This document shows positions 6,946-64,000 of a stretch of DNA of 64,000 nucleotides, in pieces. A program made the translations under genes and the position numbers. Source of the DNA: Streptomyces sp. NBC_01551 (GTDB lineage Bacteria; Actinomycetota; Actinomycetes; Streptomycetales; Streptomycetaceae); the NCBI RefSeq assembly GCF_026339935.1, contig NZ_JAPEPX010000001.1:1594501-1658500 (forward strand). The letters are read 5' to 3'. Position 1 is the stretch's first letter, and every line of letters starts with the position of its first letter. The notes under the pieces are model-generated. The model searched no databases, was not told the DNA's origin, and saw nothing but the letters and a program-made list of their open reading frames with translations.

Positions 6946-7142
6946 GGGTCCGGGGGCTGGTCCCCGGCAACGGCGCCGCAGACACACGACCACGGGTGCC
7001 GCACGACCCGGCCCCGCCCCACATCCAACCGCGCCAACCCAACCCCGGCTTCGACGACCCCATCCAGTCCCGCCGGGGCGGGGGCTGGCCGGGGCTGGTT
7101 CACCGGAGTGGTGTCGGCGGCGCGGGAGCGGCGGGCGGTGTG

Positions 7143-7904
7143 TCAGGGGGCCGGAAGGCGGAGGGTGGCCAGGACTGGGAGGTGGTCCGTGGCCGTGTGG
7201 AGGTCGGAGGCGGTGACGCCCGGAAGGGCGGTGGGGACGCCGCAGGCCAGGACTTCCACGCCCCGGGAGGCGAAGATCGCGTCGATTCGGCGGGACGGCG
7301 TCGGGGCGGGGAAGGTGTGCTCCCCGCCCCAGGGGGCGACCGTGCGGCAGTCCTGGAGGCAGGCGGCGACACGGGCGAAGGCCTGGCCCTGCGGGGGCTC
7401 GTTGAAGTCGCCCGCCACGATCTTGTACGGGGTGTCCATCCCCTCCAGCCGCTCCAGCAGCAGCCCCGCCTGGGCGAGCCGCTCGCCGGGGTCCAGCGAG
7501 AGGTGCGCGCTCAGCACCCCCACCCGCGCCGCTCCGAGCCGTACGACGGCGGTCGCGAAGCCTCGCCGGTGCAAGCCGCGCGTCATCGGCAGCAGCACGT
7601 CTTCGGTGCTTTCCACGAAGGCTCGTAGGGAACACAACAGCAGCGGCCCGGCCGCCGTCGCACCCCCGCTCAGCACCACCAGCTCGCTCTTCGCCGCCAG
7701 CCGCGCCGCGTGCTTGCGCCAGCGGAAGAACCGCGGGGCCTCCTGGACGAAGACCAGGTCGGGGGCGCACGCGCGGATCACCCTCGCCAGCGCGTCCTCG
7801 TCGTCGCGCAGCGAGCGGATGTTGTAGCTGAGCACCCGGATCACGGCAGAACCGTCGGGCTCCGTATGGGACTTCGGCAGCGAAGGCAGCACAGGCAGGT
7901 CCAT
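7143..7904 (-). CDS. Endonuclease/exonuclease/phosphatase (EEP) family protein
   Basis: 253 residues. EEP-fold landmarks run in order: VLSYNIRSLRDDEDA (metal-binding Asn), VFVQEAPRFF (catalytic Glu), VGVLSAHLSLDPGERLAQ, VAGDFNEPPQG (Asp/Asn pair), RRIDAIFAS and a terminal TATDHLPVLATL (Asp-His). These coordinate Mg2+ and cut phosphodiester or phosphomonoester bonds; the substrate may be DNA, a phospholipid or an inositol phosphate. I start at ATG 7904 (MDLPVLPSLPK) because the upstream extension is Arg/Pro-rich and would run into the glucokinase gene. Likely cytoplasmic, since no signal peptide is visible. Confidence 0.85.
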   Translation of the reverse strand: MDLPVLPSLPKSHTEPDGSAVIRVLSYNIRSLRDDEDALARVIRACAPDLVFVQEAPRFFRWRKHAARLAAKSELVVLSGGATAAGPLLLCSLRAFVESTEDVLLPMTRGLHRRGFATAVVRLGAARVGVLSAHLSLDPGERLAQAGLLLERLEGMDTPYKIVAGDFNEPPQGQAFARVAACLQDCRTVAPWGGEHTFPAPTPSRRIDAIFASRGVEVLACGVPTALPGVTASDLHTATDHLPVLATLRLPAP

Positions 7905-7978
7905 GCCCCGCAAGATACGCAGCTGCCCGCCGCTCCCCCAGAGGGCGCGGCGGGCAGGACGGGGAACAGCCGGTGTCG

Positions 7979-8920
7979 TCAGCCCTGGCGGGCCAGGTCC
8001 GCCGCGCCGACGAGCCCGGCCTTGCCGCCGAGCTGCGCGGCCAGCACCTGCGCGTGCGGACGCCACGCGCCGCCGATCAGCCAGCGCTTGAAGGACTTGC
8101 GGATCGGGTCGAGGACGAGGTCGCCCTCGTCGGAGACCCCGCCGCCGACGATGAACGCCGACGGGTCGAAGAGAGAGGCCAGGTCCGCGAGACCCGCGCC
8201 CGCCCAGCGGGCCAGCTCGCGGAAGGAGTCGATGGCCACCAGGTCACCGGCCCGCGCGGCCTCGCTGATGTGCTTGCCCTCGATGCCCTCGGGGGTGCCG
8301 TCGCCGAGGGCGAGCAGCGTCGCCGCGTTCTCGGGGGTGGCGTTCGCGCGCTGCTTCGCGTACCGGACGAGCGCGCGCCCGGAGGCGTACTGCTCCCAGC
8401 AGCCCTGGCTGCCGCAGCCGCACAGCAGGCCGTCCGGGACGACCCGGATGTGCCCGAATTCGGCGGCGACGCCGAAGCGCCCGCGCCGCAGCTTGTTGCC
8501 GATGATGATGCCGCCGCCGAGGCCGGTGCCGAGGGTGATGCAGATGACGTCCTCGTGGCCCTGACCGGCGCCGAAGCGGTATTCGCCCCAGGCCGCGCAG
8601 TTCGCGTCGTTCTCGACGACGACCGGCAGGCCGATGCGCTGCTCGACCTTGTCCTTCAGCGGCTCGTGCCGCCAGTTGATGTTGGGCGCGAAGAGTACGG
8701 TCGCGCGCTTGTCGTCCACGTAGCCGGCGGCGCCGATGCCGACGGCCTCGATGGTGTGGTTGCTGCTGACCTCGGACACGGCGGAGCAGATCGCGTCCGT
8801 CACTCCGTCCGCGGTCGGCGGGGTGGGCACCTTGTACGTCTCAAGGATGGTGCCCTCTTCGTCGACCACGCCGGCCGCGATCTTCGTGCCGCCGATGTCG
8901 ACGCCGATGGTGAGTCCCAT
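7979..8920 (-). CDS. glkA: Glucokinase, ROK family
   Basis: 313 residues. It phosphorylates glucose with ATP and, in Streptomyces, glkA is known to be needed for carbon catabolite repression. Seen: ATP phosphate-binding DIGGTKIAAGVVD (8-20), NDANCAAWGEYRFG with the catalytic Asp, LGTGLGGGII, EFGHIRVVPDG and the zinc/ROK signature CGCGSQGCWEQYASG. Length and motifs match ROK glucokinases without an N-terminal DNA-binding domain, so it is the enzyme rather than a ROK repressor. Start is ATG at 8920, overlapping nothing. From memory the S. coelicolor counterpart (SCO2126) has similar neighbours. Confidence 0.95.
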   Translation of the reverse strand: MGLTIGVDIGGTKIAAGVVDEEGTILETYKVPTPPTADGVTDAICSAVSEVSSNHTIEAVGIGAAGYVDDKRATVLFAPNINWRHEPLKDKVEQRIGLPVVVENDANCAAWGEYRFGAGQGHEDVICITLGTGLGGGIIIGNKLRRGRFGVAAEFGHIRVVPDGLLCGCGSQGCWEQYASGRALVRYAKQRANATPENAATLLALGDGTPEGIEGKHISEAARAGDLVAIDSFRELARWAGAGLADLASLFDPSAFIVGGGVSDEGDLVLDPIRKSFKRWLIGGAWRPHAQVLAAQLGGKAGLVGAADLARQG

Positions 8921-8981
8921 TAGTCCCTCGGTTTCCGGTCAAACCCCGCCACGGCCAACGGTACCCGAGGGCGGAGGCGCC

Positions 8982-9479
8982 TCAGTCGAGATCGATCCGC
9001 CCGCTGGGGCCGTCGTCCTCGGGGCCCTCACCGTCGTCGCGGGGGTCGCGGGCGTCCCGGGGGTCGCCCTCGTCGGCCGCTGCCCGGCGCGGGGCGGGCG
9101 GCTCGTCCTGGGTCCAGCGGCGCTCGTGGCCCTCCACGGCCGAGCGGTAGGCGGCCAGCAGCTCCGAGCCGGCGGCCGCGAGGTGGTCGAACACCTCGGG
9201 GTTGCGCTCGATGACGGGCTTGGCCGCGGTCTTGGCCTGGTTGACGAACTGCCGCACCGCGCCTTGGGCGGCGCCGCCCAGCAGCGGGTTGTTCAGCGCG
9301 GAGACCTTGTCGGCGACGGCCTCGAACAGCTTGAACAGCTCCTCGGCGGCGGTCCCGGTGGCCCCGCCGGCGCCGGCGCCCTGTTCCGCCCGGCGGCGGG
9401 CCCTCTCGGCGGCGAGGTCCTCGGCGCAGGCCTTGGCCCAGGCGTCGTCGTCGGTGGGGCGGTCGGTGGCCTCGCTCAT
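8982..9479 (-). CDS. DUF5304-like conserved hypothetical protein
   Basis: 165 residues, soluble and highly charged. The middle part (50-120) is predicted helical: ELFKLFEAVADKVSAL, then QGAVRQFVNQAKTAAKPVI. Both ends are low-complexity; the C-terminus is Asp/Arg/Pro rich and ends in IDLD. There are no membrane helices or catalytic motifs. It lies 61 bp upstream of glucokinase on the same strand. I recall a Streptomyces family named DUF5304 in this place; function unknown. Confidence 0.78.
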   Translation of the reverse strand: MSEATDRPTDDDAWAKACAEDLAAERARRRAEQGAGAGGATGTAAEELFKLFEAVADKVSALNNPLLGGAAQGAVRQFVNQAKTAAKPVIERNPEVFDHLAAAGSELLAAYRSAVEGHERRWTQDEPPAPRRAAADEGDPRDARDPRDDGEGPEDDGPSGRIDLD

Positions 9480-9555
9480 GGCGGACTCTCCTGCGGCGGC
9501 TGCGGGACGTGCGGTACGGGCTACCTTCGACGTTACCCGAATGGGGGTACGGGCT

Positions 9556-10770
9556 TCAGCGCTCGCGGGGCCAGAGCCCCGGGTCGGGGGTGAAGCGGAT
9601 GCGGAGCGCGCCGTCGGCGAGGGCGGCGCCGGAGACGGTGCAGCGGCGCAGCGCGGCGGGCAGCGGAACGATCCTGCGGTACGGGCCGACCGTGAGCAGG
9701 AGCTCGTCGCCGCGCCGGATCAGGTCGAGGTCGCGCTTCTCGGCGCGGGGCAGCGGAACCACCCAGACGAGCACCCCGTCCTCGGCGAGGCGGTCCTCGA
9801 CGGGCCACTCGGGACGGGGCCCGGGGGCGGCGGCCGGGGCCGGCGGGGCGGTGTCCGGGAGGGCGGCGAGCGCCGCGAGGTCGTCGGGGCCCTGGGGGTC
9901 GCGGCCGAGGTGCGCGAGCGGGAGCACGGGCAGGTCGGCGGCCCACTGGGCGGTGTGCTTCTCCTGCTGGGCGGCGAGCCCGGCGAGCCACGGGTCCGCG
10001 GAGCCCCGGGGCAGGATCCGGTTGGCGACGACGTCGGCGACGCGCAGGCGCTGGAGGGCGAGCCCGAGCCGCCCGGTCCGCAGGGCGGCGTCGGCGGCCG
10101 GACCCGGCTCGGCGACGAGCCGTACCTCGGTGGTGTCGGCCTCGATGACGGCCTGGACGGCGGCCAGCTCCTCGTCCCAGCGCGCGGCGGCCTCGTACAG
10201 CCACTGCGCCGGCATGGGCACGCCGGCCAGCTGGGCGAGTACGGGGCGCAGGGCGCGGGCCGCCTGGCGCTCCGCGGGGAGCAGCCGGGCGAGGTAGCGG
10301 CGCAGCTGGGCGGGGAGGGCGAGGGTGGCGGCTGCCTGGTGCAGCGGGGGCATGTCCACGACGACGAGGTCGACGCCGGGGGCGGTGGCGGCCCGGCGCA
10401 GGGCCCTGAGCAGCGCGAACTGTTCGGCGCCGGGCAGCTCGGTGAGCTCCTCGGCGCCGAGGGCGCGGCCGCCGAGCATGCCGAGCACGGCGGCTCCGCG
10501 TTCCTGGAGCGCGACGAGCTCGGCCCGGAACTCCTCTCCGGAGTCGATCCGGCCGACGAGCACCCCGCCGGTCACGGGCACGGCCCGCATTCCGGGCGCG
10601 ATGTCTTCGGGCGGCCCGTCGGCCGGCCCGACCAGCGCGGCCATCGGGTCCCCCGGATCACCGGACAGCAGCAGCACGCGCCGCCCCGCGCGGGCCGCGG
10701 CCAGCGCGGTCACGGCGGCGGTGGTGGTCCGCCCGGCCCCGCCGGGGCCGGTGACGAGCAGGGTGTGCAT
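9556..10770 (-). CDS. ArsA/Get3-like P-loop ATPase with altered Walker A motif
   Basis: 404 residues. The N-terminus begins MHTLLVTGPGGAGRTTTAA, aligned with the deviant Walker A GKGGxGKT of ArsA/Get3 ATPases, but both lysines are replaced (Pro and Arg). LLSGDPGDP, LVVVDMPPLHQ and VVANRILP follow the family layout (switch I, Walker B, nucleotide-base loop). A C-terminal small beta domain (VWVVPLPRAEKRDL to TVGPYRRIVPLP) resembles the ArsA HSP20-like domain. The ATG at 10770 has AAGGAG ten bases upstream; the longer open frame upstream is not coding. It probably binds nucleotide and a client or partner, but hydrolysis is doubtful. Confidence 0.82.
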   Translation of the reverse strand: MHTLLVTGPGGAGRTTTAAVTALAAARAGRRVLLLSGDPGDPMAALVGPADGPPEDIAPGMRAVPVTGGVLVGRIDSGEEFRAELVALQERGAAVLGMLGGRALGAEELTELPGAEQFALLRALRRAATAPGVDLVVVDMPPLHQAAATLALPAQLRRYLARLLPAERQAARALRPVLAQLAGVPMPAQWLYEAAARWDEELAAVQAVIEADTTEVRLVAEPGPAADAALRTGRLGLALQRLRVADVVANRILPRGSADPWLAGLAAQQEKHTAQWAADLPVLPLAHLGRDPQGPDDLAALAALPDTAPPAPAAAPGPRPEWPVEDRLAEDGVLVWVVPLPRAEKRDLDLIRRGDELLLTVGPYRRIVPLPAALRRCTVSGAALADGALRIRFTPDPGLWPRER

Positions 10771-11029
10771 GGTGCGGTGCTCCTTGAACGCGGTGCCGCC
10801 TCGGGCTCCGCCCGGACGATGTGTGACTGGCTCGGCCGCCGACGCGCCTGGGCGGGGGCCCGTGGGGGGCTGTTCCCCTACCCGCCCTTCCACCGTTCCC
10901 CGAGCTCCGCCCGGCCCCGGTCCTCAAGCGCCGGACGGGCTGCCCCGGCCTCGAAAGCCGGACGGGCCGGAGGGGCCGGGCAGGCAGCCGCGTCCCGGCC
11001 CCGCCGGGCGGGGCCGCGGCGGGGTCCGG
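10771..11029. repeat. Intergenic DNA with dispersed Streptomyces-type short repeats
   Basis: Around 10878-10975 are the phrases TTCCCCGAGCTCCGCCCGG and TCAAGCGCCGGACGGGC, the second repeated with changes as TCGAAAGCCGGACGGGC. Similar blocks occur at about 540-575, 6680-6950, 39045-39110 and 54430-54500. They are probably members of one interspersed family and can fold into hairpins. I see no gene here. Confidence 0.55.
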
Positions 11030-11473
11030 TCAGGCGGTGGCTTCGACGCGCTTCTTCAGGCCCGCCAGCGCGCGGTCGATGATGACCTTCTCCGCCTTGC
11101 GCTTGATCATGCCCAGCATCGGGATCTTGACGTCCACGGTCAGCTGGTAGGTGACCTCGGTGCGCTTGCCGCCCTCCAGCGGGGCCAGCGAGTACGAGCC
11201 GTCCAGCTGCCGCAGCATCTGGGACTTGTCCAGGGTCCAGCTGACCTCGTTCGCACCCTTCCAGGTGTAGGCCAGCGTGTGGTCGTCCTTGATCGCGCCC
11301 GCGTCCAGCAGCAGGCGGACCGTCGACGCGCGGCCCTCGGCGTCAGTGGCCAGCACCTCGGCCTCCTTCACCTCGCCGGTCCACTCGGGGTAGCGGGCGA
11401 AGTCGGCGATCACGGCCATGACGTCGGCCGGCGCCGCCTCGATCGTGATGCTCGAGCTGGTGTGTTCCGCCAT
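11030..11473 (-). CDS. SRPBCC (START-like/polyketide cyclase) family protein
   Basis: 147 residues. Pattern of a helix-grip fold: SSSITIEAAPADVMAVIAD, then FARYPEWTGEVKEAEVL, alternating strands, and a long C-terminal helix (AEKVIIDRALAGLKKRVE). Such proteins bind hydrophobic ligands or act as cyclase-like enzymes. ATG 11473 is preceded by GGAGG. It sits upstream of the ArsA-like gene on the same strand, separated by about 260 bp of repeat-containing DNA. Ligand unknown. Confidence 0.82.
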   Translation of the reverse strand: MAEHTSSSITIEAAPADVMAVIADFARYPEWTGEVKEAEVLATDAEGRASTVRLLLDAGAIKDDHTLAYTWKGANEVSWTLDKSQMLRQLDGSYSLAPLEGGKRTEVTYQLTVDVKIPMLGMIKRKAEKVIIDRALAGLKKRVEATA

Positions 11474-11635
11474 CGCGGTCGCTCCTCCGTGGAGTGTTCG
11501 AGGAAGTGTGCGGGCGGCCCCCGGCCGCCGCGTGAAGGCTACCGCGCGTGCGGACCCCGCCACTCCAGCGGACCCCACGACTCCGTCAGATCCCCCCTGC
11601 CGCGGCTGAATCCAACGCCACCGCTCACCACTCGC

Positions 11636-12427
11636 TCACCACTCCAGCACCCACGGCCGCCCCGTCGACGCGAAGTGCCCGACGTTCACGCACTCCGTCC
11701 CCCCGATCCGCATCCGTCGCGCCAGCGGCTGGTGCACGTGCCCGAACAGCGCGTACCGCGGCCTGCTCCGCCGGATCGCGGCCAGCAGCGCCTCGCTGCC
11801 CCGCTCGAACCGCCGCGCCACCGTGTCGTAGCAGAGCTCCGGCACCTCCGGCGGGATGTGCGAGCACAGCACGTCCACCTCCCCCAGTGCCTCCACCTTC
11901 GCCGCGTACTCCTCCTCGGAGATCTCGTACGGCGTCCGCATCGGCGAGGGCAGGCCACCGCCGACGAACCCGAAGACGCGGCCGCCGATCTCCACCCGCT
12001 GCCCGTCCAGAACGGTGGTGCCGGGTCCGGCGTACTCCCGCCACAGGCCCGGGATGTCGACATTGCCGTACGTGGCGTACGTCGGGGAGGGCAGGGCCGC
12101 GAACATCTGCGCGTACTGCCGCCGGACCGCGCCCTCGATCAGCCGCTCCCGGTCGAGCCCGGCCCACAGCTGCCGCCCGAAGTCCCTGGCCTCCGCGAAC
12201 CGGCGCGCCGTCCGCAGCTCCACGATCCGGTCGGCGTTCTCGACGCCGAACAGGTCGGGGAAGATGCCGCGCGAATGGTCGGCGTAGTCGAGGAAGAGGA
12301 CGAGGTCACCGAGGCAGATCAGCGCGTCGGCGCCGTCTCCGGCCCGCGCGAGCGCCTCGGTGTTGCCATGGACGTCGCTGACGACGTGCACCCGCGTGCC
12401 GGCCCGGCCGGTTTTGCTGCCACCCAT
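11636..12427 (-). CDS. Metallophosphoesterase
   Basis: 263 residues of a calcineurin-like phosphoesterase. The five metal-ligand blocks are visible in order: VVSDVHGNTEA (D, H), CLGDLVLF (D), YGNVDIPG (N), CSHIPPEVP (H) and FGHVHQP (H-x-H). These bind two metal ions and cleave phosphomono- or diesters. Start is the ATG giving MGGSKTGRAG; the longer frame overlaps the upstream promoter region of the acyl-CoA synthetase gene. It is divergent from fadD. Substrate unknown; cytosolic. Confidence 0.87.
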   Translation of the reverse strand: MGGSKTGRAGTRVHVVSDVHGNTEALARAGDGADALICLGDLVLFLDYADHSRGIFPDLFGVENADRIVELRTARRFAEARDFGRQLWAGLDRERLIEGAVRRQYAQMFAALPSPTYATYGNVDIPGLWREYAGPGTTVLDGQRVEIGGRVFGFVGGGLPSPMRTPYEISEEEYAAKVEALGEVDVLCSHIPPEVPELCYDTVARRFERGSEALLAAIRRSRPRYALFGHVHQPLARRMRIGGTECVNVGHFASTGRPWVLEW

Positions 12428-12656
12428 GCCCGCCACCCTAGGGGCGCCTGGGGAGTGGGGGTAGTGGGAGTCGTACAGGCAGCCGGACCTGCGGTTACTT
12501 CCGCGTCCCGAACGGGGTCGACTAGTGTCGGTACGGCACGGCCGCGTCATGTGACGCACGGAACATCTGGCCGGTTCCCTCTATCCGGAACCCACTACCG
12601 GTGGGTAACGTCCGGTCGGTCCACACGTGGCGATGGCGCCCAGAGGAGCAGCAGTC

Positions 12657-14453
12657 TTGCGCGAGTTCAGCCTTCCGGCCCTGTACGAGGTCCCGTCGGA
12701 CGGGAACCTGACGGATCTCATCCGCCGCAATGCCGCTCAGCATCCAGACACCGCCGTCATGAGCCGCAAGGTCGACGGCCGGTGGCAGGACGTGACCGCG
12801 ACCGAGTTCCTGGCCGAGGTCCGCACGGCGGCCAAGGGCCTGATCGCCTCGGGCATCCGGCCCGGCGACCGGGTCGCCCTGATTTCCCGCACCCGTTACG
12901 AGTGGGTCCTGTTCGACTTCGCGATCTGGAGCGCCGGCGGCATCACCGTCCCGGTGTACGAGACCAGCTCGCCCGAGCAGATCCAGTGGATCCTCGGTGA
13001 CTCCGGCGCGGTCGCCGTCATCGCCGAGAGCCCCGCGCACAGCGAGGCCGTTGCCTCCCTGCGCGACCGGCTGCCGGAGCTGCGGGACGTCTGGGAGATC
13101 GAGGCGGGCGCCCTGGAGACGCTGGCCGTCGCCGGCGCCGGTGTCACCGACGCCGAGGTCGACGAGCGCAGCAACCTGGCCAACGCGGACGACCCGGCCA
13201 CCATCGTCTACACCTCGGGCACCACCGGCCGCCCCAAGGGCTGCGTGCTGACCCACCGCAACTTCTTCGCGGAGTGCGGCAACGCGGTGGAGCGCCTGAG
13301 CCCGCTGTTCAAGACCGGCGAGTGCTCGGTGCTGCTGTTCCTGCCGGCCGCGCACGTCTTCGGGCGCCTGGTCGAGGTGGCAGCCGTTCTGGCGCCGATC
13401 CGGCTGGGCTGCGTACCGGACATCAAGAACCTCACCGACGAGCTGCAGTCCTTCCGGCCCACGCTGATCCTCGGCGTCCCGCGCGTCTTCGAGAAGGTCT
13501 ACAACTCGGCGCGCGCCAAGGCGCAGGCCGACGGCAAGGGGAAGATCTTCGACGCGGCGGCCGACACGGCGATCGCGTACAGCCGCGCGCTGGACACCCC
13601 GCGCGGCCCGTCCTTCGGCCTGAAGCTGAAGCACAAGATCTTCACGAAGCTGGTCTACAGCAAGCTGCACGCCGTCCTCGGCGGGCGCGGCGAGTACGCG
13701 ATCTCCGGCGGCGCCCCGCTGGGCGAGCGGCTCGGGCACTTCTTCCGCGGCATCGGCTTCACGGTGCTGGAGGGCTACGGCCTGACCGAGTCCTGCGCGG
13801 CCACCACCTTCAACCCGTGGGACAAGCAGAAGATCGGTACGGTCGGCCAGCCCATGCCGGGTTCCGTGGTGCGCATCGCGGACGACGGCGAGGTGCTGCT
13901 GCACGGCGAGCAGATCTTCAGCGGGTACTGGAAGAACGAGACCGCGACGGCGGAAGCGCTGGCCGACGGCTGGTTCCACACCGGCGACGTCGGCACGCTC
14001 GACGAGGACGGCTACCTCACCATCACCGGGCGCAAGAAGGAGCTCATCGTCACGGCGGGCGGCAAGAACGTGGCCCCCGCGGTGATCGAGGACCGGATCC
14101 GGGCACACGCGCTGGTCGCGGAGTGCATGGTGGTCGGTGACGCGAGGCCGTTCGTGGCCGCGCTGGTCACGATCGACGAGGAGTTCCTCGGCCGCTGGGC
14201 GGCGGAGAACGGCAAGCCGGCCGGCGTCACGGCGGCGGAACTGCGCGAGGACGCGGACCTCATCGCCGCCGTCCAGAAGGCCGTGGACGACGGCAACGCG
14301 GCGGTTTCCAAGGCGGAATCGGTGCGGAAATTCCGCATTCTGCCCTCCCAGTTCACGGAGGAGTCGGGCCACATCACGCCGTCGCTGAAGCTGAAGCGGA
14401 ACGTGGTGGCGAAGGACTTCGCGGACGAGATCGAGGCGCTGTACCGCGGCTGA
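12657..14453 (+). CDS. fadD: Long-chain fatty-acid-CoA ligase / AMP-dependent synthetase
   Basis: 598 residues. It activates a fatty acid with ATP to acyl-AMP, then forms acyl-CoA. Visible: P-loop motif YTSGTTGRPKGC, linker motif near LEGYGLTESCAAT, FHTGDVGTLDEDGYLTITGRK with the catalytic Asp and hinge, and GGKNVAPAVIEDRI. The C-terminal catalytic Lys is in the segment ITPSLKLKRN. I chose TTG at 12657 because GAGGAG lies exactly eight bases upstream; ATGs at 12627 and 12633 lack a site. Divergent from the phosphoesterase gene. FACL group of the ANL superfamily; chain-length preference unknown. Confidence 0.92.
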   Translation: MREFSLPALYEVPSDGNLTDLIRRNAAQHPDTAVMSRKVDGRWQDVTATEFLAEVRTAAKGLIASGIRPGDRVALISRTRYEWVLFDFAIWSAGGITVPVYETSSPEQIQWILGDSGAVAVIAESPAHSEAVASLRDRLPELRDVWEIEAGALETLAVAGAGVTDAEVDERSNLANADDPATIVYTSGTTGRPKGCVLTHRNFFAECGNAVERLSPLFKTGECSVLLFLPAAHVFGRLVEVAAVLAPIRLGCVPDIKNLTDELQSFRPTLILGVPRVFEKVYNSARAKAQADGKGKIFDAAADTAIAYSRALDTPRGPSFGLKLKHKIFTKLVYSKLHAVLGGRGEYAISGGAPLGERLGHFFRGIGFTVLEGYGLTESCAATTFNPWDKQKIGTVGQPMPGSVVRIADDGEVLLHGEQIFSGYWKNETATAEALADGWFHTGDVGTLDEDGYLTITGRKKELIVTAGGKNVAPAVIEDRIRAHALVAECMVVGDARPFVAALVTIDEEFLGRWAAENGKPAGVTAAELREDADLIAAVQKAVDDGNAAVSKAESVRKFRILPSQFTEESGHITPSLKLKRNVVAKDFADEIEALYRG

Positions 14454-14469
14454 TCAGGGCCGCCCGGCC

Positions 14470-14486
14470 CGCCTGGTCAGGGCCTG
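14470..14486. terminator. Short hairpin between convergent fadD and cholesterol oxidase genes
   Basis: TGGTCAGggcCTGACCA folds as a 7-bp stem with a 3-base loop; related GGCCTGACC/CAGGGCC segments around it could extend or compete. There is no T-tract, as is common in Streptomyces. It could serve both genes. Confidence 0.4.
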
Positions 14487-14520
14487 ACCAGGGCCCGTTC
14501 AGGACCTGTTCGGTGCATGA

Positions 14521-16203
<1,683 letters not shown>

Positions 16204-16383
16204 TCAGGCATGGCGGAGGATCATACGACTCACACGACCTGCTCGGTCGGGCGTACCACCAGCTCCGCCAGGGCCACCCGCCTCGGCCGCATCCCTTCCG
16301 CGTACGGCGGGGGCCGCGCGGACGGGAGGCGGACACGCCGCCGTCGGCCCAATCGCAGCAGGGGCGGGACCCCGGGGGCCGCT

Positions 16384-17526
16384 TCAGAGCAGCTCGCGCA
16401 GCCGGTCGGCCAGGAGGTCCCAGCGCCACTTCTCCTCGACCCAGGCACGGCCGCGCTCGCCCATCCGGCGGCGCAGCTCCGGGTCCTGGAGCAGGGTGAC
16501 GATCCGGTCGGCCGCGTCCTCGGGCGAGCCGCCCTTGACCACCCAGCCCGTCTCGCCGTCGAGCACCGCGTCCGGCGCCCCGCCCGAGTCGCCCGCGACC
16601 ACGGGCAGGCCCGTCGCCGAGGCCTCCAGGTAGACGATGCCGAGCCCCTCGACGTCCAGGCCGCCGCGCCGGGTCCGGCACGGCATCGCGAACACGTCCC
16701 CCGCGCCGTAGTGGGCGGGGAGCTCGGCCCACGGCACCGCCCCCGTGAACACCACGGAGCGGGCCACGCCGGTGGACTCGGCGAGGGCCCGCAGGTCCCC
16801 TTCGTAGGGGCCGCCGCCGACGATGAGCAGCGCCGCGTCCGGGACCTTCGCGAGGATCCGCGGCATGGCCTCGATCAGGGTGTCCTGGCCCTTGCGGGGC
16901 ACCAGGCGCGAGACGCACACCACCACCGGGCGGTCGGCCAGCCCCAGCCGGGCCCGGACCTCGTCGCCGCCGGAGCCCGGGTGGAAGGTCTTCTCGTCGA
17001 CGCCCGGCGGGAGCTGCGTCATCCGCGCCGCCGCCCGGTCGGTCACCGCCGAGGCGATCCGCGAGCGCGTGTACTCCCCCAGGTACGTCAGGGTGTCCGT
17101 GCCCTCGCCGATCCGCCGCAGCAGCTGCCGCGCGGCAGGGAGCTGCGCCCAGCCCGCCTCGTGCCCGTGGGTGGTCGCGACCAGCCGGCGCGCGCCCGCC
17201 CGGCGCAGTGCCGGACCCATCAGCCCGAGCGGGGCCGCCGCCCCGAACCACACCGACTCGCAGCCGTGTTCGCGCAGCAGGCCGACCGCCCGCCGGGTCA
17301 CGCGCGGCGTCGGCAGCAGCATCGTTGTGCGGTCGCGGACGACTTGGAACGGCTGCTCGGCGTCGAAGGCGGCGGTCGCCTCGCGGCCCTCCTCGCCGTG
17401 CTTCCAGGTGGAGGCGTAGACGACGATCCGGTCGGGATCCAGCCTCAGCGCCATGTTGTGCAGGAAGGCCTGGATGCCGCCCGGGCGCGGCGGGAAGTCG
17501 TTGGTCACGATCAGCGTCTTGTGCAT
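16384..17526 (-). CDS. Glycosyltransferase family 4, PimB'-like mannosyltransferase
   Basis: 380 residues, GT-B fold, no membrane helix. N-terminal LIVTNDFPPRPGGIQAFLHNM is the acceptor-side glycine loop typical of PimB' enzymes, which add the second mannose to phosphatidylinositol mannoside. The donor side has LPPGVDEKTFHPG, VSRLVPRKGQDTLIEA (Arg/Lys binding GDP-mannose phosphates) and the E-x7-E region EGLGIVYLEASATGLPVV. Expected location is the inner membrane face. ATG 17526. No PIM partner genes are adjacent, so the exact acceptor is inferred from sequence only. Confidence 0.82.
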   Translation of the reverse strand: MHKTLIVTNDFPPRPGGIQAFLHNMALRLDPDRIVVYASTWKHGEEGREATAAFDAEQPFQVVRDRTTMLLPTPRVTRRAVGLLREHGCESVWFGAAAPLGLMGPALRRAGARRLVATTHGHEAGWAQLPAARQLLRRIGEGTDTLTYLGEYTRSRIASAVTDRAAARMTQLPPGVDEKTFHPGSGGDEVRARLGLADRPVVVCVSRLVPRKGQDTLIEAMPRILAKVPDAALLIVGGGPYEGDLRALAESTGVARSVVFTGAVPWAELPAHYGAGDVFAMPCRTRRGGLDVEGLGIVYLEASATGLPVVAGDSGGAPDAVLDGETGWVVKGGSPEDAADRIVTLLQDPELRRRMGERGRAWVEEKWRWDLLADRLRELL

Positions 17527-59498: not shown

Positions 59499-60323
59499 CT
59501 ACGGGCGGGGGCAGGCCTTGCGCCAGGGGCCCAGTTCGAGCTTCTTCTCCAGCGAGCTGAGCTTCAGCTTGCGCGTCCCGGCGCAGAACCGGCTCGTGGG
59601 AAGCTCGTACTCGACGTGGAAGACGGCCTTGTCGGCCTCGATGAACGGGGTCAGCAGCTCGCACTCCTCGTACTGGGCGCACTGCTCGTTGACCGCGAAG
59701 TCGAAGTCGCCGACCAGCTGCGGGATCTGGTCCAGGTCGTTCTTGAGCCCGACCGACAGGCCCCGGTCGTGGGCCATCTTCGCGATCAGCCGGTTGAACC
59801 TCAGCTGGTCCTCGGCGGTGACCGGGAAGCCCGACTCGTTGCGGTAGGCGTCCATGTTGTCCGGCTCCACCGCGTCGAAGCCCTTGTCCCGGCACATGTC
59901 GAACCGCTTGCCCATCAGCCGCTCCAGCTCGTCGAGCCGCCGGATGTCGAGCCAGCGCTCGCCCTCCCAGCCGTTGCCCTTGCCGAGCATCGACTCCGGG
60001 AACGCGTCGGCGTCCGGCCGGAAGTCCTCCCAGGCGCCGGTGGAGATGTAGCAGATCGTCTTGCGGCCCGCCTTGCGGAGCCCGGCGACCTGCTCCTTGG
60101 TGGTGTGGAACCCGTCGACGTCGTACACCGGCACCTTCACCGAGGTGTCGAGTTTGCCGGTGAGCTGCCACTGCCAGGCCGTCCCGGGCCTGGGCAGCCA
60201 GCGCTCCCCCGGCGCCGGGTCCGGGCCCGGGTCCTCGTCCTCGGCGGGCACGGCGGTACAGGCCGCGAGCCCGCCGAGGACGACGAGCAGCGCCCCGGCG
60301 AGCAGGACGGAGAAACGCTTCAT
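59499..60323 (-). CDS. Lipoprotein GH114 endo-alpha-1,4-polygalactosaminidase-like
   Basis: 274 residues. Signal peptide and lipobox LGGLAAC (Cys22). The GH114 barrel shows YDVDGFHTTKE (D68, D70), ICYISTGAWEDFRPD and DAVEPDNMDAYRN (E153, D155, D158), which hold the catalytic acids. Members cut alpha-1,4-linked galactosamine polymers, including the hydrolase half of PelA. ATG 60323 has GGAGG seven bases upstream and overlaps the stop of the spherulin-like gene. It is last in a four-gene cluster with a PelF-type glycosyltransferase. Confidence 0.87.
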   Translation of the reverse strand: MKRFSVLLAGALLVVLGGLAACTAVPAEDEDPGPDPAPGERWLPRPGTAWQWQLTGKLDTSVKVPVYDVDGFHTTKEQVAGLRKAGRKTICYISTGAWEDFRPDADAFPESMLGKGNGWEGERWLDIRRLDELERLMGKRFDMCRDKGFDAVEPDNMDAYRNESGFPVTAEDQLRFNRLIAKMAHDRGLSVGLKNDLDQIPQLVGDFDFAVNEQCAQYEECELLTPFIEADKAVFHVEYELPTSRFCAGTRKLKLSSLEKKLELGPWRKACPRP

Positions 60324-61000
60324 CCGGTGGCCTCCAGGGCGTACGGGAGGGTCCCCCACGGGTGCGCGCCGGACCCGGGGACCGCACAGTGCACCCCCGC
60401 GCCCCGTTCCGTCGCCAGCTGCTCGGCCAGCTCGGCGGCCGACGCGCCCGGCGGCACGGCGTACACGAGGTGGCAGAACCGCCGGGCGGGGTGCTCGGCG
60501 GTCCACGGCGGTACGGCGGCCGCGTCCCGGTACGCGTCCCAGGGGCCCTCGAAGGTGACGAGCAGATCGGCGAGTTCGGCGTAGCCAGGGTGCGGGTGCA
60601 CCCCGTGGTTGAGGACGAGGGTACGGGCGCCCGCCGCCCGGGCGGCGACGGTGAGCCGGCCGTAGTGCGGCAGCAGTTCGGGGCCGGAGGCGGCCTGGTC
60701 GAGGAAGGTGCCGTCGGTCGCGTACCAGTCGCGGTGGCGCAGCAGGTCCTGGACGACGGCGGCGTGCGGGCGGCGCCCGTAGTCGGTGTCGACGTACCCC
60801 AGGACGGGCACCCCGGCGTCCCGGAGCCGCCCGGCGACGGCGGCGAACCGCTCGTCGGGGGCGTCCCCGGGCCCGCTGGCGGGGTTGAGCACGACCGAGT
60901 GGAGCCGGCCCGCCGAGCGGATCAGCAGCTCCCAGGCCTCGGGCCGGTCGGCGGGGTGCTCGTAGAGGGGCACCAGCAGCATGTGGTCCTTCTTCTCCAT
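60320..61000 (-). CDS. Spherulin-4/GH135-like protein
   Basis: 226 residues. A TIM-barrel pattern: HMLLVPLYEHPADRPEAW, VVLNPASGPGDAPDERFAAV, VLGYVDTDYGRRP, TDGTFLDQAASG and LVLNHGVHPHPGY. This is the spherulin-4 family, to which fungal Sph3 (GH135), an enzyme of galactosaminogalactan production, belongs. No signal peptide is seen, so it is probably cytoplasmic. ATG 61000 has no clear ribosome site; an ATG at 60982 has AAGGA upstream. It overlaps the GH114 gene. Confidence 0.83.
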   Translation of the reverse strand: MEKKDHMLLVPLYEHPADRPEAWELLIRSAGRLHSVVLNPASGPGDAPDERFAAVAGRLRDAGVPVLGYVDTDYGRRPHAAVVQDLLRHRDWYATDGTFLDQAASGPELLPHYGRLTVAARAAGARTLVLNHGVHPHPGYAELADLLVTFEGPWDAYRDAAAVPPWTAEHPARRFCHLVYAVPPGASAAELAEQLATERGAGVHCAVPGSGAHPWGTLPYALEATG

Positions 61001-61016
61001 GAGGTACGTGAACGCG

Positions 61017-62558
61017 TCAGCGGTGTGCCGTCGCGCGGCCCAGCAGCAGGCAGACCAGCGTGGCCAGCGCCGCGGCGGCCGTGCCCGCGACCAGCAGCTG
61101 GACCACCCGCGGCTGCCCCAGCCCGGTCAGCAGCGCCAGGCTCTGGGCGAGGGCCGCCGAGGCGCAGACGGCGGCGGCCGGCCGGACCGCCCCGAAGGAC
61201 TGGAGCAGCAGCCCGGTCCACATCACCGAGCCGAGCAGCAGCAGGGTCGCGGCCCGGACCCCGGTGAGGCCGGGGGCGCCCGGCCAGAGCAGGGTGCCGA
61301 CCAGGCCGAGGGCCAGCAGCACCGCCAGGTACACGGCGACGCACCGGGTCAGCGCGGCGAGCATCCGGCGCCGGAACGCCCGGGGCGAGCGGGCCGCCCG
61401 GAGCCCGGCGAGGCTGCCGCTGCGGAAGCGGTGCAGCAGCCATTCGGCGGGCCCCATGCTGAGGGTGAGGGCGACCGCCGACGGGGCGGCGACCGCTTCG
61501 GCGGGACCGCCGGCGAGCACCTCCCCGAGGGCGGCGTACAGCACGAGCAGACCGGTGCCGAGGCCGAACACCCCGTACGGGACGGAGTCCCCGATCCGGG
61601 GCCCGCGCGGGGTGAACTCCTCCTCGGCGCCGCGCAGCATCCGCCAGCGCACCGGGCCCTCGCCGGGCCGGCGCCGCGACCAGCCGCGGATCCGGCGGGC
61701 GGCGGCGCGTACCCCTTCGGCGAGCGGCAGTTCCCGTACCGCGAGGGAGCAGGCGGCCAGCAGGGACAGCACCAGCAGGGTCACCCGTACCGGCACGGGC
61801 AGGTCCACGAACAGCGTCAGCACCGCGCCCGCGGCCATCGGGGCGAGCGCGGCCAGGAGCTTGCGCTCCCGCCCGAGGACCAGCAGGACGGTCGCGGCGC
61901 CGACGTAGAAGGCCTGCCCGGCGGCGAAGGCGTACGAGAACGGCGGCCCGCCGGGTACCGCCGACGCGGCGACGGTACCCAGCAGGGCCCCCGCGGGGGC
62001 TCCGACGAGCAGGGTCCGCCCGGCGGCGGCCCGGTCGCCGAGGCCGAGCCAGGAGTAGGCGCGGTGGGACAGGGTCTGGTCCCAGACCCAGCCGATGAGC
62101 GCCCCGGCGAGCAGGGTCAGGGTCCCGGCGGGCAGTCCGAGCCGGTCCGGCGGGCCCTCCAGCAGGGGCGCGCCGAGCAGGTAGGCCAGGCCCGGCAGCG
62201 CGAAGATGACCCCGCGCAGCAGGCAGGCGGTGAGGGAGACCTTCCAGGGGTCGGGGGCGCCTTCCGGCTCCGGGAAGGAGCGGGGCACCCGGGCGTAGAG
62301 CTCCTCGGCGAGTCCGAAGGAGTCGTGGCGGCCGTAGGTGAGCCGGATGTACTCGTCGGTCATCCCGTCGGATTCGAGGATGGCGGCGATCTCGTCCGGG
62401 TGGACGGCGGCGGCGATGAACACGTCGAGGCGCTCGGCGAGTTCGTCCATCGGGTCGGCGGCGGTACCCGTGGCCGCGGCCGGGCCGGTGCGGCGGGGGC
62501 GCGGGACGGCGGGCAGCGTGTTGCCGCCCGGCACCTTCAGCCAGAGGGATCCGCTCAC
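61017..62558 (-). CDS. Large polytopic membrane protein, possible polysaccharide exporter
   Basis: 513 residues. The first 110 are soluble (MDELAERLDVFIAAAVHPDE, YIRLTYGRHDSFGLAEELYARV) and the rest has about ten to twelve helices in two blocks. A polar stretch IGWVWDQTLSHRAYSWLGLGD lies in the first block. It has no recognised nucleotide or glycosyl motif. GTG 62558 overlaps the PelF-like stop in a GTGA. Its place suggests the transport role of PelG, but the sequence is not a clear PelG; it could be a scaffold. Confidence 0.72.
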   Translation of the reverse strand: MSGSLWLKVPGGNTLPAVPRPRRTGPAAATGTAADPMDELAERLDVFIAAAVHPDEIAAILESDGMTDEYIRLTYGRHDSFGLAEELYARVPRSFPEPEGAPDPWKVSLTACLLRGVIFALPGLAYLLGAPLLEGPPDRLGLPAGTLTLLAGALIGWVWDQTLSHRAYSWLGLGDRAAAGRTLLVGAPAGALLGTVAASAVPGGPPFSYAFAAGQAFYVGAATVLLVLGRERKLLAALAPMAAGAVLTLFVDLPVPVRVTLLVLSLLAACSLAVRELPLAEGVRAAARRIRGWSRRRPGEGPVRWRMLRGAEEEFTPRGPRIGDSVPYGVFGLGTGLLVLYAALGEVLAGGPAEAVAAPSAVALTLSMGPAEWLLHRFRSGSLAGLRAARSPRAFRRRMLAALTRCVAVYLAVLLALGLVGTLLWPGAPGLTGVRAATLLLLGSVMWTGLLLQSFGAVRPAAAVCASAALAQSLALLTGLGQPRVVQLLVAGTAAAALATLVCLLLGRATAHR

Positions 62559-64000
62559 CACAGGCTCCCGTCGGCCGCGAGCTCGCGGTACCAGGGGTCG
62601 GCGAGCCGCTGGGTCCACTCGTCGCCGGCGTGGACGGACAGGACGGGCTGGCCGGCCAGCTCCCGGTAGATGTGCCGGAAGCCGTCGACGGACCGGTGGA
62701 GGGTGAACTTCTCCACGACCCGCCTGCGGGCGGCCCGGCCGAGTTCGGCGCGGCGTTCGTCGTCGCGGAGCAGGGCGAGGGTGGCGCGGGCCATGGTCTC
62801 GGGCTCGCGGGGCGGGACGACGAGGCCGGTGTCCCCGACGGCCTCGCGGACCCCGCCGACGTCGGTGGAGACGGTGGTGCGGCCGCAGGACATGGCCTCG
62901 ATGATGCTGAAGGGGAAGCCCTCGCTGATGGAGGAGAGCATCACGACGCTGCCGGCGGCGTAGGCCCCGGCGACGTCCTCGACGCGGCCCTCGTAGGTGA
63001 TGCCGTCGGTGACGCCGAGTTCGGCGGCGAGCTTCTCCAGGTCGAGCCGGTAGTCCTCGCAGCCCGCCGGGACCGGCCCGAACAGCCGCAGCCGCAGGGC
63101 GGGCAGCTCCACGCGCATGAACGCGTAGGCCCGGATGAGGGTTTCGAGGTCCTTGATGGGGTCGATGCGGCCGCACCAGCTGAGGGTGGGCACCTCGGGT
63201 TCCGGTCCGGCCTCGGGGAAGGCGTGCGTGTCGACGCCGTTGTAGACGGTGCGGATCCGCTCGGAGTCGGCGCCTCCGCGCTCCTCCCAGCGGCGGTTGT
63301 ACTGGTTGCAGGGGGTGATCAGGTCGGCCTGCCGGTAGCCCTCGGAGTTGAGCTCGCGGTAGAAGCCGAGCAGCAGCGCCTTGACGGGCCAGCGCTGTTC
63401 GGCGGTGCGGTAGCCGAGGTAGCGCTCGCGCAGGTAGATGCCGTGTTCGGTGAGGAGGAACGGCACCCCGTCGAGGTACTTGGCGGCGAGGGCCGGGAGG
63501 GTGGCGAGACCGCTGCTGACGGCGTGCGCGACGCAGTCGGGCGGGATCCGCACCGAGAGCGGGCGCAGGGCGTGTTCCAGCAGGTCGGTGGCGGTCAGCG
63601 CGTCGTGGATGGTCGGCGCGGCGGCGGCGGTGGCCAGGCCCGGGCGGGTCCACACGTCCATCAGGAGGCGCAGGACCGACTCGGAGCGCAGGGCCGGGGC
63701 GAGTTTGCCCGCCCGGGCCAGGACGGCCAGTTCGCGCAGGGCCTCGGAGAAGCCCCCTCGGCCGGGTTCGAGCAGGGAGAGCAGGAAGCCCTCGTAGGTC
63801 TCGGTGAAGCGGCGGTGGGCCCTGCCGCGCAGGGCCTTGCGGCGGCTGCGGCCCGGCGGCGGGCCCCAGAGCGGCACGGCGGTGTGCCGGTACACGTTGC
63901 GCGGCAGGTCCCAGGTGACCGGCTCGCGTCCGGAGCCGGTCAGGGCTATGACGTTGAAGTCGACCTCCGGCATACCGCGTACCAGTTGGTCGCACCAGGT
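62555..64000 (-). CDS. PelF-type glycosyltransferase family 4 (5' truncated by window edge)
   Basis: 481 residues are present and the frame is open at the right edge, since the codons before the in-frame ATG at 63973 still read TWCDQLVRG and then MPEVDFNVIAL, as in PelF. The DUF3492-type N-terminal half includes LLTEHGIYLRERYL and PCNQYNRRWEERGG. The GT4 half has VYNGVDTHAFPE, SWCGRIDPIKDLETLI (donor-phosphate Arg/Lys) and SSISEGFPFSIIEAMSCG (E-x7-E). PelF uses UDP-N-acetylhexosamine to polymerise Pel. First visible gene of the four-gene unit. Confidence 0.88.
   Translation of the reverse strand, partial: TWCDQLVRGMPEVDFNVIALTGSGREPVTWDLPRNVYRHTAVPLWGPPPGRSRRKALRGRAHRRFTETYEGFLLSLLEPGRGGFSEALRELAVLARAGKLAPALRSESVLRLLMDVWTRPGLATAAAAPTIHDALTATDLLEHALRPLSVRIPPDCVAHAVSSGLATLPALAAKYLDGVPFLLTEHGIYLRERYLGYRTAEQRWPVKALLLGFYRELNSEGYRQADLITPCNQYNRRWEERGGADSERIRTVYNGVDTHAFPEAGPEPEVPTLSWCGRIDPIKDLETLIRAYAFMRVELPALRLRLFGPVPAGCEDYRLDLEKLAAELGVTDGITYEGRVEDVAGAYAAGSVVMLSSISEGFPFSIIEAMSCGRTTVSTDVGGVREAVGDTGLVVPPREPETMARATLALLRDDERRAELGRAARRRVVEKFTLHRSVDGFRHIYRELAGQPVLSVHAGDEWTQRLADPWYRELAADGSLW

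Follow-up and report, generated by a model that had tools for sequence, protein, structure and literature searches.

Bacterial operons built around an Agd3-type deacetylase were described in Nature Communications in 2020, in a paper with Bamford as first author. The available text of that paper (PMC7229062) reports Agd3 homologues in 45 bacterial species and, in its tree, places agd3 in or near carbohydrate-enzyme operons in 30 of 35 cases. Each operon identified there encodes a glycosyltransferase together with a multi-spanning membrane protein; GH114 is highly consistent, and spherulin-4 genes occur in some Actinobacteria. The same text cites two Streptomyces products, a galactosamine polysaccharide and an endogalactosaminidase, and proposes that the fungal galactosaminogalactan (GAG) cluster is of bacterial origin. 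Here we analyzed a 64,000-nucleotide stretch of Streptomyces sp. NBC_01551 (the window; G000:C1:1594501-1658500 in the source genome), whose right end carries four genes that, together with a fifth just beyond it, form what we regard as a likely GAG/Pel-like exopolysaccharide system (cluster A). Judged from the protein families, its product would probably be a sticky galactosamine-rich polymer like those of mould and Pseudomonas biofilms.

Since PMC7229062 describes such operons, cluster A belongs to the already described Agd3-type kind: an Agd3 (CE18) homologue adjoins the operon, which has a cytoplasmic glycosyltransferase, a multi-spanning membrane protein, GH114 and spherulin-4. An earlier reading made from the letters alone (the sequence-only reading) had supposed more novelty than is left by this precedent, in which agd3 operons with a glycosyltransferase, a membrane protein and GH114 are already reported. 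The available text of that paper does not mention a MOP fold for the membrane protein, a GH135 protein without a leader, or three clusters in one genome. A description of the MOP assignment, the leaderless GH135 or cluster C (see below) was also not found in searches of open-licence PMC papers, which is no proof of absence.

The fungal GAG cluster (uge3-sph3-gtb3-ega3-agd3) likewise combines a deacetylase, GH114, GH135 and a glycosyltransferase, and a sister cluster in the same Streptomyces genome (cluster B) adds epimerase-type genes. However, not all five fungal gene types, which include a UDP-hexose epimerase, are matched at cluster A, and fungal Gtb3 is, in the source text available, one integral membrane glycosyltransferase, whereas polymerase and exporter are two proteins here. 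The Gram-positive pelDEADAFG operon of Bacillus cereus, as presented in the available parts of PMC7112168 and PMC13254593, shares a PelF-type polymerase, a MOP-fold exporter and an extracellular de-N-acetylase and hydrolase, but it has PelADA where cluster A has a CE18-like deacetylase with CBM87, and the PelA hydrolase family where cluster A has GH114 and GH135; the exporter of cluster A also bears an extra N-terminal domain. Because the upstream deacetylase gene is Agd3/CE18-like, the gene set is, by family assignment, nearer to the GAG cluster of fungi and the bacterial Agd3 operons than to pelDEADAFG. The cyclic di-GMP receptor PelD (PF16963) had no match in the source genome but also none in 14 controls, and PelE was not searched.

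The operon bears on the proposed bacterial origin of the fungal cluster (PMC7229062, as far as its available text goes). With a task proposed for each gene, it also offers a concrete case for testing the reported Streptomyces galactosamine polysaccharide and endogalactosaminidase. Its hosts are filamentous soil bacteria that may meet GAG-making moulds.

Gene order and conservation of cluster A

The four genes within the window lie at 59499-64000, all on the minus strand. The gene for the pelF-type GT4 polymerase (62555..64000; 504 residues) continues past the right edge, its 5' end lying 69 bases outside the window (full frame L005:4056-5570). It overlaps by 4 bp (GTGA) the gene for a 513-residue membrane protein, our candidate exporter (61017..62558), which is followed after a 16-bp gap by the gene for a leaderless Spherulin4/GH135-like hydrolase of 226 residues (60320..61000). 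This gene in turn overlaps by 4 bp (ATGA) that for a 274-residue GH114 endo-alpha-1,4-galactosaminidase-like lipoprotein (59499..60323). On the same strand, 107 bp upstream of pelF and outside the window, lies the Agd3-like deacetylase gene (G000:C1:1658677-1660788). PelF matched DUF3492 (148 bits, E 5.1e-43) and GT4 domains in Pfam, and passed the NCBIfam equivalog NF038011 (136.4 bits vs a cut-off of 100).

The sequence-only reading had given these positions and overlaps correctly, and its naming of a PelF-type GT4, a spherulin-4/GH135-like protein without signal peptide and a GH114 lipoprotein held up, as did the galactosamine-rich polymer as likely product, given these assignments and the catalytic acids described below. 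It had proposed a look beyond position 64000 for further pathway genes; the sequence there completed pelF and added the Agd3/CE18-like gene. Epimerase models from clusters B and C found no match at cluster A.

Conservation was examined in 80 loci, the best 80 of 396 matches in a scan of named genomes, picked by similarity to the window membrane protein; by title, 78 are from Streptomyces and two from 'Actinobacteria bacterium'. All five genes, including the upstream Agd3-type gene, were detected in 62 of the 80, with order and strand in agreement in 62/62. This shared order on one strand suggests that the gene set is more than chance. The 18 incomplete loci comprise 7 short pieces at contig ends, 10 without detected GH114 and one without Spherulin4. 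The 4-bp overlap between pelF stop and exporter start recurred in 62 of 72 measured loci, and an in-frame ATG or GTG of gh114 overlapping the sph stop by 4 bp was present in 68/68. At the family level, the exporter alignment matched 107 of 121 genomes. By hand count the match was strong (E below 1e-40) in 59 of them and only weak in 48, the latter mostly through a short match that marks cluster C in the loci inspected. A sample across the phylum gave matches in 14 of 296 genomes.

The membrane protein as candidate exporter

The closest relatives of the 513-residue protein are from Streptomyces (92 % identity to an S. goshikiensis protein). It had no match in Pfam or NCBIfam; specifically, Pfam PelG (PF16933) left it unmatched at E up to 1 and had no match in the source genome. 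A profile of the exporter drew a single match among PDB sequences (E 0.13). Structure prediction nevertheless gave a complete MOP 12-helix fold over residues 100-513 (61020..62261, minus strand), the fold reported for PelG in the available text of PMC13254593. The earlier statement that no PelG is visible was misleading in this respect, and we take the protein as an analogue, and probably a distant relative, of PelG. Among distant relatives, PF16933 scored 29.0 for P0126, equal to the cut-off, and 20.6 for the L133 protein; P0121 had no PelG match by scan, yet its record bears a precomputed PF16933 tag.

Ahead of the transmembrane part lies a predicted helical domain (residues 36-90; 62289..62453, minus strand), which by itself aligned with PelG-like proteins (hhalign, 99.1 %, E 1.9e-18, 60 columns). 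The domain also occurs in cluster C and in PelG-like proteins that are linked to PelF in other Actinomycetota.

The missing Pfam match could also mean that the 513-residue protein is a PelE-like scaffold and that another MOP flippase exports the chain, and one distant locus does encode a Wzx/MurJ-type flippase (L134:2023-3459) that is separated by two genes from the relative of the 513-residue protein. We consider this quite improbable, as the predicted MOP fold is complete and the remaining four proteins come from soluble or secreted families.

Hydrolases, deacetylase and likely product

The Spherulin4 protein matched PF12138 with 113 bits (cut-off 30.2) and the crystallized spherulin-4 5c5g with E 4e-9. 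Its catalytic Asp101 (codon 60698..60700, minus strand) aligns with the Asp of FFDE in 5c5g and is Asp in 81 of 83 rows, while Glu151 (60548..60550, minus strand) aligns with the Glu of VFE and is Glu in 80 of 83; the following residue is Gln, compared with Glu in Sph3. The Sph3 nucleophile is presumably Asp166; the 56-residue spacing in the 5c5g comparison fits 166/222. The available text of a published paper prints it as Asp196. We predict that the protein is a GH135 hydrolase of alpha-1,4-linked N-acetylgalactosamine (GalNAc), with the operon's own product as its likely substrate.

A start-site error as the cause of the missing leader was ruled out by a scan of the space between exporter stop and Spherulin4 domain, measurable in 77 of 81 loci (in the other four, one gene of the pair is missing). 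No in-frame hydrophobic 14-mer (mean Kyte-Doolittle value of at least 1.6) was found in any of the 77, of which 68 have room for fewer than 14 residues; the leaderless start is kept in 77/77. Together with the exporter assignment, this raises the question why a polymer system should hold a cytoplasmic endo-hydrolase. Fungi offer a precedent for a hydrolase on which synthesis depends: according to the title of a cited reference, Sph3 is required to make GAG.

The GH114 protein scored 280 bits with PF03537 (cut-off 27) and aligned with the Ega3 crystal structure 6ojb (E 3.9e-57). Its nucleophile Asp155 (59859..59861) and acid/base Glu213 (59685..59687; both codons on the minus strand) are each invariant in 77/77 rows, and their spacing of 58 residues equals that of Asp189/Glu247 of Ega3. 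A lipobox-like motif, read as LAAC in the window, was found in 66 of 68 loci. Two unrelated hydrolases devoid of catalytic acids had been considered in advance as a refutation; this was rejected, both Asp/Glu pairs being present.

Across 61 Streptomycetaceae genomes, GH114 matches fell into two score classes, 28 at 262-297 bits and 33 at 92-188 bits. A full-length exporter lay within 12 kb of 24 of the 28 high-scoring matches and of none of the 33 low-scoring ones, and conversely 24 of 32 full-length exporters had GH114 near. The GH114 genes away from exporters (33/33 and 4/28) fit enzymes that degrade the GAG or Pel of neighbouring moulds and bacteria, whether in foraging or against biofilms, and Streptomyces griseus secretes an endogalactosaminidase that is cited in the available text of PMC7229062. 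To read the GH114 and GH135 proteins of cluster A in this way, with the polymerase genes as mere neighbours, seems to us very unlikely: the genes overlap by 4 bp, the leaderless GH135 would have to be released before it could act outside, and 62/80 loci keep the five-gene order, which includes a polymerase, an exporter and a deacetylase of its own.

By its family matches, the deacetylase beside pelF is Agd3/CE18-like with CBM87 and differs in this from PelADA. The protein spans 676-703 residues and, judged by reading its sequence, begins with a hydrophobic stretch. Among 24 aligned relatives, 23 matched the Agd3 deacetylase family at E <=0.1 (best 2.2e-8) and 13 the Agd3 carbohydrate-binding module.

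In the GAG/Pel-like system that we favour, families, catalytic residues, gene order and conservation were read from the sequence and the exporter fold from a predicted structure, whereas the polymer's identity, the direction of export, the division of labour between the hydrolases and the role of the N-terminal domain are inferred. PelF would polymerize UDP-GalNAc, or a mix of GalNAc and galactose, in the cytoplasm, and the MOP-fold protein would export the chain, its N-terminal helical domain being the part where PelF probably docks or is controlled. Outside the cell, the Agd3-like enzyme would deacetylate the chain in part, making the polymer cationic and adhesive, and the GH114 lipoprotein, anchored on the outer side of the membrane, may cut deacetylated stretches. 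The leaderless GH135-like enzyme would deal with nascent or failed chains inside the cytoplasm.

Several points weigh against this system. The identity of the polymer is itself deduced from protein families, and the 80 loci are not independent. Even with 9 kb of downstream sequence, 10 of the 80 lacked detected GH114 and one lacked Spherulin4; in the 61 family genomes, 8 of the 32 full-length exporters had no GH114 within 12 kb. In profile comparison with PelG-like proteins, the transmembrane part of the exporter alone showed only weak similarity, at 2.4 % (E 0.019), with values of 0.0034 and 0.054 for its halves and 0.39-0.43 for reversed controls. The Agd3_CE score in the source genome was 22.2-22.5 bits, below the cut-off of 27.6, and the Agd3-like protein led to no Agd3 among PDB sequences, either by phmmer or by profile. 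Finally, the cluster B and C models for epimerases and nucleotidyltransferase had no match at cluster A (L005), other epimerase types not having been searched; precursor supply from elsewhere is therefore assumed.

Sister clusters and other PelF layouts

Cluster B (L006, G000:C1:6106500-6126000; 7046-16865) is the second complete cluster of the source genome. It holds genes for agd, pelF (63 % identity), the exporter (45 %), an epimerase/dehydratase, a nucleotidyltransferase, a second epimerase, Spherulin4 and GH114. The sugar specificity of its nucleotidyltransferase and two epimerase/dehydratases is unsettled, and GT4 and MOP proteins take part in making a wide range of glycans. Both facts would suit some other wall polymer containing hexosamine or galactose, such as a teichuronic-like or capsule glycan, as the product of the operon and the substrate of its deacetylase and hydrolases. 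We hold this to be unlikely, since one operon encodes CE18, GH114 and GH135, three families tied to alpha-1,4-GalNAc/galactosamine polymers, and their catalytic residues are conserved.

Cluster C (L007, G000:C1:4371500-4391000; 8881-13927) is a third, reduced PelF cluster, with pelF (45 %), an epimerase, Spherulin4 and a membrane protein of 300 residues that carries the N-terminal domain; GH114 and Agd3 were unmatched in its 19.5 kb. Its Spherulin4 protein lacks both catalytic Asp and Glu. Family genomes supplied 30 Spherulin4 loci. Of these, 23 resemble C more closely; 18 of the 23 keep the catalytic Asp, and one, L157, keeps the catalytic Glu (L166 has Asp instead). The remaining 7 keep both residues; one of them, L168, is equally distant but lies beside GH114. 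In this comparison the model 'epi1' is not independent evidence, as it matches epi2 proteins too. By hand count, 26 of the 61 family genomes have C-type Spherulin4, which is thus widespread, not universal.

Taken together, clusters A and C would fit an Actinomycetota Pel/GAG-type pathway with another system of control and quality, a tentative reading that we think somewhat doubtful. The exporter N-terminal domain, present in PelF-linked membrane proteins of several lineages, would replace PelD/PelE as the docking and control site of PelF, making synthesis independent of cyclic di-GMP, and the cytoplasmic GH135 would cut nascent chains. In the widespread Streptomycetaceae cluster C, GH135 would then have turned into a chain-binding subunit without catalysis, next to a shortened exporter. 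With GH114 and deacetylase absent, these bacteria would make a second, unmodified galactosamine-type glycan.

In L133, L134 and L136, from other Actinomycetota, a PelF of 715-770 residues is paired with a PelG-like exporter bearing the N-terminal domain, a different Pel-like layout. L133 and L134 also encode neighbouring proteins of 711-727 residues, and L133 a HEAT-repeat protein of 954 residues. At L132:11943-13679, an Agd3-like gene split across several frames lies next to pelF, GH114 and another PelF-like gene; it is either a broken gene or the result of assembly errors. In the source genome, a further Spherulin4 gene (103 bits; L010) stands apart from the three clusters at G000:C1:514838-515560.
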